Origin: Trichobilharzia regenti | Taxonomy: Eukaryota > Platyhelminthes > Trematoda > Strigeidida > Schistosomatidae | Length of the DNA stretch: 64,000 nucleotides | Reading direction: 5' to 3' | Assembly: GCA_944472135.2 (NCBI GenBank) | Contig: OX235270.1 | Location: 52,023,267 to 52,087,266 of the forward strand | Shown: piece by piece, positions 4,800 through 62,428 of the stretch | Numbering within the stretch: the first letter of the stretch is position 1 | Layout: the number at the start of each line of letters is the position of its first letter | Translations under genes and position numbers: made by a program | Notes under the pieces: model-generated | What the model was told of the DNA's origin: nothing | Databases searched by the model: none | What the model saw: only the letters and a program-made list of their open reading frames with translations

Positions 4800-7195
4800 T
4801 ATGTGTTATTTTGTCATATCTGCGCCTGCTAATTATTATGAAGGTAACGAACTCGACTGGTACACTAATAATTCTATTTGTCCATTGTACCTTCCAACTC
4901 ACTAAGCCCTGCAAATATCAAAAGACAATGGCTGACCTGTGACTGTATTGTACACTTTCTTTACCATAATAAAGTTGGCTAACAGGCGTAAGAATGGACT
5001 TTTCTTATTGGCTTGAAATTTTTATTCTCATTGGTTGGCGATCCAACAAAGACCAAGGTGAGACAAAAGACCATGAATCGATCACACACTAGATCACAAT
5101 ATGCATTACAAATGATAGAAAAACGTAGTATCTCCATCACAAGTTAAATCGCACGATTCGTAAGGAAGGATGAATCTACTACTTTATGTTGGGTCTTATC
5201 ACACCTGATAGTACGGCTTCAGAGGATTTTGTGGTTTATGATAAACTAGTGACTTGATAGACCAGTCTGTTAGCTGGTGTATAGGAATCCGGAATATTCC
5301 AATGGAACTAGTGTGGATTATTGTCGGTGGCATAGTGGTTAGGACTCTCGCCAACCATGCACATGGTCCCAGGTTCTATCCCTGCCGACGCACACATGAT
5401 ATCTATGGTCGGCCTGCAAAAATTGGGATACCGATATCCATGCTGAAAATTCCATACCTGTACCAAAAATACATTGTGGAATCAAGCCGTAATCAAATAT
5501 AAAAATAATCCCAGTTCACAATAAAAGAAACAAATCTTCCTGTGATAAACATATGGAAATCAGAATAAATAACGCAATATTTAAGGTTTTAGATTCTATA
5601 GTTCTTTCAAGACTAAATGAGGCTCTTCATAGCAAACTTGGGCAAATAGAACGATTTTTTGAGCTTGATAATTTTTTATGGATCTGAAATATGATTTTCT
5701 GGCCTTTATCTGATGGCGATATTTGACTCATTCTGTAGAGTCTGGGGTGACGACAACCAACTGTATCGACCGAAGGTGATTATTATCACTGTTGTCTTTT
5801 AAATTCATTATCGACACACTATTGGATGTGATCCTCGTTAACTTCGACTTTCCAAGAAGTAACCTTCCACTGGGGAAAATCCGCTTTGACCCACAGAATG
5901 CAAAGTATGCCGAACGCCAGTTAAGATCCAAACGTGTTTGGATGCAGTTCATCAATATCAAATTTAATATAATACTATAGAGTGGTCTTCACAAATCCTT
6001 GTTTTAAGGAAAGATAGAGAAATTGTTGATACTATTGAATACTTCATTAATTTGAAGAGCTGCACTAGCCCAAATGGACTGACTTGTGACGAAATATTAG
6101 TGTTAATATTAAAAACACTTCAACCCTTATCAACCTACATCATCTTTACACAGGTGTAGCATTCACTTATCCATCAGAAAACGTTTGAAATGCTCTCAGT
6201 TTGTTTTATCTTATCTGAAAGTGATGATATCAAGAGACTAGTGAATTTTGAACACAAGGACAGTTCTTCAAGCTCTCAAATTATATGGAGCGCACTAGTC
6301 CATAACATTGGGGTTTGTGGTACAGAGTTAGATGAGACGTAAAACTTAATCGACGATATGATGATGCTCCATGGATCGAGATGGCTAAGGTATGCGTTGC
6401 ACATGCCGAACCAATGCTGTACTCAGTTTAGTAATGTCAACTTAAATAGGACTACTCTGAAAAAAGTTTAATCGTGGAAAATACTCATCGGGACATTACA
6501 GGGAAAAGAACTAGAGGTTCAGCAAAGATATCTTTTTGGCGATTTCATTCTCAAAAGCAGCTATACAGTCGCAATTATATACATTAGTGTACATGAATAC
6601 AATTATTATTTATTTCATTCCCCATAGTAACGAAGGTGATGGTAATTTTCAACTTGATATGAAAGTTTGAAGGTACGAATATAGATTACAAGGGGCTTCG
6701 AGACAAGATTGCATACGATTAGAAAACAGTTACAACGTATACAAAATTAATATTTGATAACTGGAGAAATACTTTTAAAGACGAATAAAAGGTGATAATA
6801 ATTTTCAACTTGATATAAATTACAGGAGGCTTAGAAACAAAAGTTACGCAGGGATAGAACGAATTACAGGTGTGAACAAAATGAGCATGGAAACAAATTG
6901 AAATCAGAATTTTTCAACTTCAAATGTAAGTTAGGAGGTGTGAATATAGATTACAAGAGGCATAGAAACAAAAGGATACAAAGGATTAGAATATAATTGT
7001 AAACTGGTTATTCTAAACGAATTACAAGTGTGATCAGGAGGAGCATGGAAACAAATTTAATAACTGATTTTATAACTGAAAAAATGGGATGAATTGAATG
7101 AAGACAAATAGAGAAAATTACACACACAGAGAACAAAACAAAATAAAAAACTGAAGGGTAAAGGAACATACCGAAATAGGTCCATGGTGGTTGTA
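4800..7195. other. Mostly unannotated
   Basis: Apart from the SINE at 5.33 kb, nothing recognisable. 6.65-7.07 kb contains loosely repeated GAAACAAA/TTACAAG wording (ATTACAAGGGGC, ATTACAGGAGGC, ATTACAAGAGGC), a possible old short tandem duplication of about 130-150 bp. Confidence 0.4.
5325..5512 (+). mobile_element. tRNA-head SINE with an alternative 3' tail
   Basis: The head (GTCGGTGGCATAGTGGTTAGG, then CCGACGCACAC) is the same tRNA-like module as in the 23.05-kb SINE. The tail is different: GCTGAAAATTCC, then TGTGGAATCAAGCC, ending in an A-rich run. The same tail occurs at 7.81, 9.23 and (reversed) 20.34 kb. Box B is degraded. Confidence 0.65.
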
Positions 7196-12743: not shown

Positions 12744-12959
12744 GAACTGGCAGAAGTTAGAATTCAAGGACCATCGGATCGGGTCCCAGTGGCTCAATGT
12801 TCTACGAGCTCGCCTTGTAACCAGAAGGTCCTGGGTTCGAGCCCCGGTGGGTGCGTACTGCTGAGGAGTCCCAAACTGGGACGAAACGGCTGTCCAGTAC
12901 TCCCAGGTTTTCCAGTGGTTCTCTAACTGATGTCAGCTCATGATTAAATTCCTCCATGC
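12744..12959 (+). mobile_element. Hammerhead SINE, family H1, complete short form
   Basis: A 216-bp insertion between 12-bp TSDs (AATTTTGACCGT at 12732-12743 and 12960-12971). It starts in GAACTGGCAGAAGTTAG and has a tRNA-like region (GGCTCAATGTTCTACGAGC and box B GGTTCGAGCCC), then an intact hammerhead ribozyme, then a tail ending CCTCCATGC. Such elements depend on another element's reverse transcriptase; a PLE or RTE in this genome is the likely helper (inference). Confidence 0.85.
12855..12900 (+). ncRNA. Hammerhead ribozyme, intact (H1)
   Basis: Core CTGAGGA (12861-12867) and GAAA (12883-12886) are complete. Stem I is GTACTG/CAGTAC (12855-12860 with 12895-12900). Stem II is GTCCC/GGGAC. 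Stem III is minimal (AC/GU). Cleavage is expected after GTC (12892-12894). The very short stem III is typical of Sm-alpha-like ribozymes. Confidence 0.88.
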
Positions 12960-16187: not shown

Positions 16188-16232
16188 ATCCAGGATGCGC
16201 ATTTCGTCCTATTTGGGACTAGTCAGCTGGAT
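16188..16232 (-). ncRNA. Hammerhead ribozyme, G8 mutated (H2)
   Basis: Minus strand: stem I ATCCAG/CTGGAT, core CTGACTA (G8 is U), stem II GTCC/GGAC, GAAA, cleavage triplet ATC. Loss of the catalytic G8 should inactivate it. Confidence 0.8.
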
Positions 16233-22927: not shown

Positions 22928-22938
22928 ACAGCATGAGC
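22928..22938 (+). repeat. Target-site duplication, left, of the U6-SINE chimera
   Basis: ACAGCATGAGC, identical to 23279-23289 just after the SINE's A-rich end. The pair shows that U6 and SINE entered in a single insertion. Confidence 0.88.
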
Positions 22939-23045
22939 GTACTCGCTTCGGCGGTACATATACTAAAATTGGAACGATACGGAGAAGATTAGCATGGCCC
23001 CTGCGCAAGGATGACACGCAAAATCGTGAAGCGTTCCATATTTTT
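22939..23045 (+). ncRNA. U6 snRNA retrocopy (5' half of a U6-SINE chimera)
   Basis: The 107 bases are colinear with U6 spliceosomal snRNA over its whole length, ending in the T-run. The 5' stem-loop, the AGATTAGCATGG region and the GATGACACGCAAA region are plain. Against the usual U6, position 3 is A and position 17 is T, a compensated base pair in the 5' stem. The normally invariant ACAGAGA box reads ACGGAGA. An 11-bp TSD abuts the first U6 base, and the SINE follows the last T, so this is a reverse-transcribed copy, not a U6 gene with its own upstream promoter. It is probably a pseudogene. I cannot say whether the variant 5' stem is normal in this species. Confidence 0.9.
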
Positions 23046-23278
23046 GGGCGTCGGTGGCACAGCGGTTAACACGCTCACCGACCATACACATGGTTCGGGG
23101 TTCGATTCCCGGCCGACGCACGCCTTTACCTTGCTAAACTAGAAATAATGCTGGTTAAGAGGAAAGGTTGAGCATGAGGCTAGCAACCCCATCCTGTAAA
23201 ATTAAACACTGCTACAGAAACTTCAAGCCACAAGCTTGAAGCCCTACGTTCCACTGGGAACGTGAAGGAAATAAAAAA
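23046..23278 (+). mobile_element. tRNA-derived SINE with RTE-like 3' tail (family T, copy 1)
   Basis: The first 72 bases after the leading GG form a tRNA-like head: a 7-bp acceptor stem GCGTCGG/CCGACGC, box A (TGGCACAGCGGTTAACACG) and box B (GGTTCGATTCC). A body of about 110 bp follows, then an 8-bp hairpin (CTTCAAGC/GCTTGAAG), then GAAGCCCTACGTTCC ending in GGAAATAAAAAAA. That last part matches the 3' ends of the RTE fragments in this window, so the SINE is probably moved by an RTE reverse transcriptase. It is joined directly behind the U6 copy. Confidence 0.85.
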
Positions 23279-23289
23279 ACAGCATGAGC
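23279..23289 (+). repeat. Target-site duplication, right, of the U6-SINE chimera
   Basis: ACAGCATGAGC, perfect copy of 22928-22938. Confidence 0.88.
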
Positions 23290-30034: not shown

Positions 30035-30475
30035 TTCAAGTATTGGTTTTGTAGGGATTTTGTTTGATTGCATGGAGGATTTAATCATAAGCTTACATCA
30101 GTTAGAGAACCACTGGAAAACCTGGGAGTACTGGACAGCCGTTTCGTCCTAGTTTGGGACTCTTCAGCAGTACGCACCAACCGGGATTCGAACCCAGGAC
30201 CTTCTGGTTACAAGGCCAGCAAGCTCGTAGACCACTGAGCCACTGGGACCCGATCCAATGGCCCATGAATTCTAACTTCTGCCAATTCACGAATAGCGCG
30301 ACCACTTCGCACTGTCTTCTTCGATGAGTTACTGCCTCATCTTCAACCTGCTGTAGCCTACTGGTCACGGCTTCCCACTAGAACCCAGGTTAACTGCCTG
30401 AATAGGGCCAGTGACTAGTGAGCACAGATTAATTTTCAAGTATTGGTTTTGTAGGGATTTTGTTTGTTTGCATGG
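30035..30475 (-). mobile_element. Hammerhead element H1, longer than one unit, with terminal direct repeats
   Basis: A 441-bp insertion between 12-bp TSDs (AGAATTAGAATT at 30023-30034 and 30476-30487). The first and last 41 or so bases are near-identical direct repeats (TTCAAGTATTGGTTTTG to GCATGG), about 399 bp apart. Read on the minus strand, it runs tail segment, unique region, tRNA-like head (box B GGTTCGAATCC), hammerhead, then tail segment again. This is more than one full turn of a ~400-bp repeat unit. Confidence 0.85.
30128..30173 (-). ncRNA. Hammerhead ribozyme, intact (H1, minus strand)
   Basis: On the minus strand: stem I GTACTG/CAGTAC, core CTGAAGA and GAAA, stem II GTCC/GGAC, cleavage triplet GTC. 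All conserved core bases are present. Confidence 0.86.
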
Positions 30476-36372: not shown

Positions 36373-37137
36373 CTAAAATTTAAATAAGTAAATTTAACTC
36401 TTTGAATTTATGTTTTATTCTGTTGAAGAGTAAAAACAATTTGCTTAGAATTCAAAAATTCACAGAACAACATGCACTGAATTGGTTTCGGTTTTCTAAA
36501 AATGTAATTTTTGAAAAAAGTATCTCGTAGTCGAAATGTTTTCATGCATTACCACTTGGCATTACTTGAGCGGAAAAACTAATATTGAGTACTGAGATCA
36601 AGATAAACATCATGTATAGGGAGCATCATTATGGTGGAAAGAACTTAAAAACAGGGAAGATACGTGTAATAAAAACTTCTCTTGAAAAATACCGTCTAAA
36701 GCAGCTTCTATCAGTACATCTGTTTACATTCTTTTCTTTGTAAGAGAGAATTGCGAATACATATGTTCAAATGCTAATTTTGATTTTAAGTAATAATTAA
36801 TAGCTTCCCTAAATATTTAGAATAACTTGGTAAAAACTTAAGAAGTACAGATGCATCAACTTGAGCAAACGCTGAACGGGTATGCTTCATGTCCAAGGAA
36901 TGACACCTAAAAATAAACACTGTATCACTTTTAAAATTGACTGTATCCAAAACGTCGAAGCGACATTTACAGAAGGTTTCAAATACACTTTATGATACTG
37001 TAATAGCAGAGAAGACTTGATGTTTAGGATTAAGGTGACAATACTTTGACTGCAAATGTTTCACCATTGATTTCACATAGAAATGAAGCACTTTAAAGGT
37101 CATGAACATTTGTTTTTCATTCATTGGGAAATACGAA

Positions 37138-37697
37138 AACCAATGATCTTCCTGATTGCAATTGACTGGATAATGCGACAGACAACGGCAACCAACGAGG
37201 GAACAGGCATAAAATGGACTGACACAAAAGACTTGGAGGATCTGGATTTCGCCGATGATATATGTCTGATTTCCCATAAACTGGAAGATATGCAAGTGAA
37301 AAGTAACAAGTTGGCAGAAGAAGCATCAAAGATAGGACTTCACGTGAACATAGATAAAACAGAGATAATGAAGATTCCTAGCCAACATCAACAGCAACAA
37401 CAACAACAGACAACAATAAGCATAAATGGGAAGAACCTGAAAGAAACAACCTCCTTCAACTACCTGGGAAGCATCGTCTCAACTACAGGCGGAACTGACG
37501 AAGACATCAAAGTCAGAATCGGAAAAGCAAGACAAGCTTTCATTACTCTCAAATCTGTGTGGAGGTCAACAGCAATCAGCATCAAAAATAAGATCCGGAT
37601 TTTCAACTCCAATGTGAAGTCAGTGCTACTATACGGATCAGAGACTTGGCCAGCGCGTCATAAAGAGCATCTCAAACAAACTTCAAACCTTCATTAA
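37138..37697 (+). pseudogene. RTE reverse transcriptase, 5'-truncated, part 1
   Basis: Open frame from the 5' truncation to a stop at 37697. It includes FADD and a run of Gln codons (CAG/CAA) at about 37388-37407. The upstream 50 codons or so in the same frame are flanking sequence. A frameshift near 37655 separates it from the next piece. Confidence 0.75.
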
Positions 37698-38043
37698 CAA
37701 CTGTCTCCGCTCAATACTCAAGATCAGATGGCCAGAAAAGATCAGCAACAGGGATCTATGGGAGCGAACCAATCAGGAACCGATTGTGAAACAAATAGGC
37801 AGAAAGAAATGGAGATGGATTGGCCATACGCTGAGGAAACCATCAAGTGACATCACTAGACAAGCCCTCGAGTGGAACCCGAAAGGGAGGCGGCGAGTTG
37901 GTCGTCCAAGGGCGACTTGGAGGAGGTCATGCGAGGAGGAGATGAAAGCATGTGGACAGACCTGGAGCAGGGTGAAAAAGTTGTCAGAAAACCGAAGTCA
38001 ATGGAGGTGCGCAGCTGAAGCCCTATGTTCCTCTAGGAACTAA
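37660..38043 (+). pseudogene. RTE ORF C-terminal part, after frameshift
   Basis: In the next frame the protein continues (SISNKLQTFINNCLRS, then IGRKKWRWIGHTLRK) to a stop at 38043. It contains the Trp-rich and basic region usual at the C-terminus of RTE proteins. Confidence 0.75.
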
Positions 38044-39054
38044 AGGATACAATAATAATATAATAATAATAATGAATATCATATACCCAATGCCCAAATT
38101 TTTTCAAACCGTTAAAAGTGAACTTGGTTTGGACATATATAGTCACGAACATGTGTTTAAAAACATCAGATTTGAACGATGGTGTATTGTAAGTGGTTTA
38201 TTGTTCCACTGGAGTTTTGAAGCCTGAGTCTTGTAATCCTAACACGTTGTCTTATTTTAACCTGCAGTGCTATATTTATATCGCATCATGATATCTGACT
38301 TCTCGTTGATGCCCATATAATCTGATGATTACCCGTTAACTGGATTGACCAATAAAGCAATGCTGGCTGTTCTTGTAATCGATTTTGCAAGTTACGTTTT
38401 TTTGTTTCTTAAGACACCACACCCTCGAGTTTTTACGAGTTAATCTGTAGCGACTCGTATTCACAACCTCGCTAAATGGATAGAATAGCACGCTAAGATT
38501 TGCTCAGGTATCCTTAATGTGTAGTGTTATAATGCTCTCTGTTAGCTGAGGTTATTTATTGTTCATTTGACTTAGTTAAAAGTTACATACCTTACTAACT
38601 AGTGATTAATTTATTAAGTCTGATCATTCTAACCATAACTTTGGGAGGTATTGCCAGTTAAATTCTCAGTGAATAAGTGTTGATGTGACTGTAATTAAAC
38701 GTGATAACTTTCCTTTCCATTTGACCTAAAGTTGTACACTCATACTGTCAAAATGCAGTCTGACAGCTCCACTTTTAAATCAACAAAATATGCACAATCG
38801 TATTTGTTCGTAGACTTTCAAATGTCAGAGGATTTTCAGTTACTAGGAATCACAGGAACAGAAAGAGGATGATATTATTATTTTCTCCTCATTAACACAT
38901 ACTTCTCAAAGAAAAACAGGAAGAGATAACAGCTTGCTATATTACAAACGAAAATCAGATTGCGAAAACAAGAGAAAATGAACTTTCTTCAGCACAATGA
39001 ACTAAAACGTTAAGTAGGAGTAGCATTTAAAATTGCTTTCAACCTTCATCTTAC

Positions 39055-62172: not shown

Positions 62173-62203
<31 letters not shown>

Positions 62204-62204
62204 T
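62172..62204. repeat. (TA)n tract plus T-run
   Basis: AT repeats followed by a T-run that is the A-tail of the minus-strand SINE. Confidence 0.85.
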
Positions 62205-62428
62205 CTTCACGTTCTCAGTGGAACATAGGGCTTCAAGCTAGTGGCTTGAAGTTTCTGTAGCAGTGTTTAATTTTACAGGATGGGGTTGCTAGCCTCATGC
62301 CCAACCTTTCCTCTTTACCAGCATCATTTCTGGCTTAGTGAGGTAAAGGAGTGAGTCGGACGGCGGTCGAACCCCGGACCATGTGCATGGTCGGTGAGTG
62401 TCCAAACCACTATGTCACCGACGCACGA
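62203..62428 (-). mobile_element. tRNA-derived SINE, family T, copy 2
   Basis: Minus-strand copy of the same SINE as at 23.05 kb: head GTGCGTCGGTGACATAGTGG with box B GGTTCGACC, the same body, the hairpin CTTCAAGCC/GGCTTGAAG shape, and the GAAGCCCTATGTTCC tail ending in an A-run. An AT microsatellite and T-run lie next to its 3' end. Confidence 0.8.

Follow-up and report, generated by a model that had tools for sequence, protein, structure and literature searches.

The question raised by this locus is how a copy of the U6 snRNA and a SINE came to lie end to end. The window, meaning the whole 64,000-nucleotide stretch analyzed here, belongs to contig OX235270.1 of the flatworm Trichobilharzia regenti, and at 22928..23289 it holds a U6 copy directly adjoining a SINE, which we call SINE A, with both inside one perfect 11-bp target-site duplication. 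The parts read in order as follows.

22928..22938, no strand: left copy of the target-site duplication, ACAGCATGAGC, identical to 23279-23289
22939..23045, plus strand: full-length U6 snRNA retrocopy ending in T5 (RF00026, model positions 1-105 of 105)
23046..23047, plus strand: GG at the joint, taken as the start of the SINE RNA from the plain SINEs L022 and L029
23048..23121, plus strand: tRNA-like head of SINE A, common to copies at 62424 (minus) and 5323 (plus)
23153..23226, plus strand: SINE body, common to the 5' region of LINE D (77% to L068)
23236..23270, plus strand: 3' tail common to LINE 3' ends, from matches in the window
23271..23278, plus strand: A-rich end ahead of the right duplication, read directly
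23279..23289, no strand: right copy of the target-site duplication, identical to the left copy

The U6 match scores 112.5 bits (E = 1.5e-28), and the 2 parts lie on the same strand with U6 on the 5' side in sense orientation. The duplicated sequence occurs on the plus strand of the window just twice, at 22928 and at 23279, and its score is matched by 1 of 462 swapped pairs, in which the upstream flank of one chimera is set against the downstream flank of another. Because that single duplication brackets both parts, one insertion is supported for U6 and SINE together, as a preliminary description had proposed, and its account of a full U6 joined to a complete SINE within a perfect 11-bp duplication is borne out by the whole-model RF00026 match, the repeat, and a second copy of the SINE. 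Between the last T of U6 and the motif GCGTCGG there are 2 bases, GG. In the plain SINEs L022 and L029 the order is duplication, GG, GCGTCGG, so we read the GG as belonging to the SINE, whose RNA would begin there. This makes the joint end to end, from the last U6 T to the first base of the SINE RNA. A plasmid search gave no match.

The head of SINE A falls below the cut-off of the Rfam tRNA model and ARAGORN calls no gene there. By eye, 23055-23065 looks A-box-like and 23099-23109 B-box-like. The body aligns to the LINE part of the U6-LINE chimera L068 at flank positions 66-142, and the tail matches 15507 (plus), 4045 (minus), and 18526 (minus) at 86-92%, and 38016 (plus) at 80%. An open reading frame at 37071-37697 with RVT_1 and DUF6451 lies upstream of the tail at 38016-38055. 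The end of a 3.15 kb LINE that follows U6 at L090, which is the same locus as L053, is likewise the SINE's tail, so the RTE-like tail proposed earlier is supported as a LINE tail both in the window and at L090; for the LINE sharing this tail we presume the clade name RTE. The 12-bp repeat with one mismatch that follows the LINE tail at L090 and a long-range repeat at L046 were both found without the swap control. Three other SINE copies in the window introduce the families met below.

62195..62424, minus strand: plain SINE A copy without U6, 88% over 230 bases to the window SINE from 23048 on
5323..5505, plus strand: SINE A2, with a similar head and another body, elsewhere the usual partner of U5 (88% to the L041 flank)
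12781..12917, plus strand: SINE B, a tRNA-like head with a type I hammerhead at 12855-12900 (RF00163)

SINE B matches the flanks of L065, L071, and L075, and elsewhere it is a partner or a middle part in U6 chimeras. The window has 9 type I hammerheads at or above cut-off, including 16188-16232, 30128-30173, and the one at 12855-12900, and 5 of the 9 are within SINE B copies.

A search of the genome with the DNA of the window stretch, scoring the best 40 of 9325 candidates, provides loci L001 to L022, with 19 U6-SINE A pairs, one of which (L019) is beside a run of N. A U6 family search, which is blind to what lies 3' of U6, scored at least 48 copies of 109340 loose candidates, and all 48 match over model positions 1-105. 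Copies with the same flanks were merged (L053-L056; L051 and L059; L069 and L070; L078 and L079; 2 in L081; the 2 arms of L064), leaving 40 distinct U6 loci, with counts that are to be read as lower bounds. Sorted by hand, 36 of the 40 have an identified partner at the U6 3' end, whether a SINE, LINE, tRNA, or other repeat. SINE A adjoins U6 in 18 of 40 (truncated by 13 bases in L063 and by 43 in L074), SINE B and a LINE 5' region in 5 each, SINE A2, LINE C, and a tRNA in 2 each, and a LINE interior and repeat E in 1 each. The 4 loci lacking an identified partner are L045, L064, L082, and L083, the last with LINE sequence starting 77 bases on. When the L046 U6 served as a DNA query, the best 40 of 127 candidates were scored, and they lay at almost the same places as those from the family search. 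The search for further U6-SINE chimeras suggested beforehand has turned up dozens of fusions in this genome alone.

An uninterrupted consensus U6 gene was not found with exact patterns or among the matches listed. A 53-base U6 core occurs exactly once in the genome, inside the chimera L041; of 16 matches to the U6 5' pattern, 13 are at loci already seen (including L082, without identified partner) and 3 are cut or rearranged copies; and the 5 matches to the U6 3' pattern are all at loci already seen (including L045, without identified partner). The consensus gene may be unassembled or interrupted. By eye, L136 has a U6 fragment within an antisense SINE A. At L058:2109-2400 (minus), upstream of a U6-SINE chimera, is a whole-model match to the metazoan SRP RNA with a hammerhead match inside it.

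Three or more parts are present at 8 of the 40 U6 loci, in these orders.

L041: U5, U6, A2
L051 (copy L059): U6, two tRNA units, SINE A
L057: tRNA, U6, B
L069: U6, tRNA, C
L075: U6, B, A
L078: U6, B, B, E, A
L065: U6, B, 5S-like stretch
L067: U6, E, SINE A, with a 20-bp bracketing repeat that has one mismatch

The tRNA units of L051 look to us like initiator Met and Lys, and both have T-rich trailers. The 5S-like stretch of L065 scores 37.7 bits against a cut-off of 38. L067 is the only one of the 8 with a bracketing repeat, and for the others we infer a single event. At L059, one test finds no bracketing repeat and another lists one of 10 bases at a distance of 1035 bases, with one mismatch; at L075 the best repeat is 133 bases from U6. 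Two observations concern what lies upstream of U6: at L057 an inverted SINE A abuts the tRNA unit preceding U6, and at L065 a reverse-complement 5S rRNA-like stretch, a weak Rfam match at E = 0.11, ends near U6.

U5 has a different habitual partner. A U5 family search scored at least 47 copies. Contigs C125, C284, and C71 aside, 38 remain, and 19 of these were read, taken from the top of the list. SINE A2 lies within 50 bases 3' of U5 in 18 of the 19, L099 being the exception, versus the 2 of 40 U6 loci that A2 adjoins. The flank of U5 itself can be seen in L117, from the C125 array. In L100 and L109, U5 runs about 30 and about 45 bases into flank of the L117 type before A2 starts, and hence the copying took in RNA past the mature U5 end. 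Of 16 U5-A2 chimeras tested, 0 have a bracketing repeat scoring 8 or more (1.7% of 240 null pairs), and for this reason a single event is less certain for the U5-A2 class.

For the window chimera and most of its sister loci, the explanation that we hold to be probable, reasoning from sequence, is serial end-to-end template jumping during retrotransposition, and the template switching proposed in the preliminary description is still the best reading of these loci. At a nicked target, a LINE enzyme recognizing the shared 3' tail would begin at the 3' end of the SINE RNA and copy it. Upon reaching the 5' end of the SINE RNA, it would jump to a U6 snRNA, at the oligo(U) 3' end, and copy this through to its 5' end, and the whole cDNA would end up as a single insertion with one duplication. 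The same jumping may have been repeated with several elements, sometimes serially by way of tRNA precursors, a second SINE RNA, or U5. The identity of the enzyme, the order of the steps, and the joining of the parts during reverse transcription and not before it are presumed from the structure of the joints. In L017, U6 is cut internally at a 4-base overlap, GCGT.

The alternative with most to recommend it, which we nonetheless consider improbable, is that U6 RNA was joined by RtcB to a 5'-hydroxyl on the retroelement RNA, with the fused RNA inserted afterwards. Mature U6 RNA has a cyclic phosphate at its 3' end. LINE D, which carries Exo_endo_phos in L086 (LINE C of L089 has RVT_1), has a 5' end resembling the type-P1 twister ribozyme, below cut-off, at L068:1603-1691, L066, L061, L050, and L045. 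In 4 U6-D chimeras the match scores 45.7-51.9 bits (E from 2.5e-7 to 4e-9), its first model positions fall within the T-run of U6, and the AACC or AAACC after that run is the model's U/A site. In the available part of PMC5408937, twister is described as cutting at U-A and leaving a 5'-hydroxyl, and ligation of U6 to LINE-1 RNA has been reported in human (Moldovan 2019, as cited in the available parts of PMC13174262 and PMC13247085). Hence self-cleavage of LINE D, if real, gives the 5'-hydroxyl, and RNA ligation is possible above all for a LINE with such a 5' end. Against it, all twister-P1 matches at LINE D 5' ends, at 45.7-52.7 bits and E from 2.5e-7 to 1.8e-9, are under the Rfam gathering score of 67.2, and the fifth U6-LINE 5' chimera, L053, has no twister match. 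The match in L071 is at 29.6 bits, and for the LINE C 5' end Rfam gives nothing up to E = 0.5.

Primary transcripts of Pol III carry a 5' triphosphate and a 3'-hydroxyl, and in other animals U5 is made by Pol II, neither of which suits ligation. The L017 joint lies inside U6, and ligation does not easily explain that joint or those to tRNA and U5. It is the internal cut of L017, the tRNA units of L051, and the U5 flank in L100 and L109 that make us prefer jumping to ligation. As an observation apart, L071 and L045 have the first 270-300 bases of LINE D directly upstream of U6, head to head, at 99-100% to L068, which twin priming could produce.

A second alternative is that all copies descend from a single U6-SINE chimera, which spread as a new composite SINE. 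In its favor are the many copies with identical part order and a SINE tree on which the chimeras are clustered, requiring 7 changes against a shuffled mean of 13.9, with 0 of 500 shuffles as low; the plain SINEs on the tree are the best matches to the window SINE, and such picking may cause the clustering. However, the U6-SINE A joints differ between loci in letters and length, and most joints therefore look like independent events. Following CATA, 37 of 40 entries (2 loci being entered twice) have a T-run of 3 to 7, and the other 3 read 1 because another base breaks the run. The truncated SINEs of L063 and L074 and the truncated U6 of L017 also stand against a single source, as does the joining of U6 to several other elements. 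After correction, no diagnostic column separates chimeras from plain SINEs (best p = 0.0029, 44 tests), and among 41 aligned SINEs the nearest kin of the window SINE is a plain copy, 97% identical, with the same GG beside its own duplication. On the joints, the nearest kin, and the absent diagnostic columns, we reject this origin as very improbable.

The bracketing repeats are found in only part of the sister loci: one of score 8 or more is present in 9 of 22 distinct U6-SINE A chimeras, versus 0.87% of 462 swapped flank pairs, and 13 of the 22 are without. Among 21 plain SINE A copies read, 12 are flanked by a repeat scoring at least 10, 2 of these in AT repeats, a count made without the swap control. 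Matching ages of the U6 and SINE parts were also considered and rejected, as their divergences show no significant correlation (Spearman 0.28, p = 0.21, 22 copies). The 19 U6 parts hold 78 distinct changes, 61 private to one copy and 17 recurrent, and the window U6 differs from their consensus by the single change A43G. That change, in the ACAGAGA box, is common to the window U6 (window 22981) and the U6 of L046 (L046:1543), whose partners differ. This points to a U6 RNA variant behind both or to a change made at that one site during copying. Finally, 2 separate adjacent insertions or an assembly error have a negligible chance of accounting for the locus, since nothing at the window site was found to support either, one duplication brackets both parts, and the U6 chimera pattern recurs on contigs C1-C5, C7, and C8.

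Returning to template jumping, the choice of acceptor is open to a speculative and doubtful extension, in which retroelements finish reverse transcription next to the U4/U6.U5 tri-snRNP and the acceptor depends on the element, A2 taking U5 and A, B, and the LINEs taking U6. One locus, L041, is U5-U6-A2. If the extension is true, serial small-RNA jumps would keep supplying new composite SINEs, and the U5/U6 split, if it is true in the remaining copies, is a lead to the nuclear site where insertion finishes. The multi-part loci show how SINEs with several RNA heads could come about step by step, and together the loci suggest a retrotransposon enzyme that repeatedly jumps from one RNA to the next. 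Here a single genome has joints numerous and varied enough to distinguish template jumping from RNA ligation.

In comparing these loci with known systems, snRNA-retroelement chimeras look to be extended to a flatworm; in the literature on them that was searched, by titles and abstract openings with few subscription papers, no flatworm U6 or U5 chimera was found. Chimeras of this class occur with mammalian L1 and Alu, as the preliminary description had it, and vertebrate U6 cases with SINEs and an RTE-like LINE are already in the available part of PMC4476161. The window locus is one of dozens of fusions in the genome. That source has vertebrate U6 chimeras with L1, L2, an RTE-like LINE, Mon-1, and AnolisSINE2, proposes template switching, and mentions 40 U6 chimeras in platypus (Doucet et al. 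2015), so that the number here is not exceptional. As there, U6 is 5' and in sense, and many chimeras have duplications. Unlike here, most platypus U6 parts are 5'-truncated, the system as described in that part is of vertebrates only, and the 3 human U5 chimeras are 3'-truncated, whereas here U5 reaches or passes its 3' end.

The available part of Gogvadze et al. 2007 (PMC2104539) describes bi- and tripartite chimeras of Magnaporthe grisea and mouse B2-U6-L1, which like ours take 2 successive template jumps and have a duplication around 3 parts, as at L067. Those here differ in also forming arrays of four and five parts, with tRNA units and U5 among them, though of the multi-part loci only L067 was found to have a bracketing repeat. 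Mammalian LINE-1 chimeras, for which the part of PMC13174262 available weighs both ligation and template switching, also have the non-LINE RNA 5' of the retroelement in one event, with LINE-1 there and a SINE and other LINEs here. The schistosome elements Sm-alpha and Sj-alpha, as far as the available part of PMC2770079 goes, share with SINE B the tRNA-like head and hammerhead, a likeness of architecture, and differ in that SINE B is a partner in U6 chimeras. LINE loci of parasitic flatworms with a partial spliced leader (PMC12582326, available part) also have small-RNA sequence on a LINE, but the explanation given there is trans-splicing of the transcript, not jumping, and U6 does not figure in it. 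Set beside these systems, what is new here is, apparently, the flatworm host group, together with the serial small-RNA arrays and the U5/U6 split.
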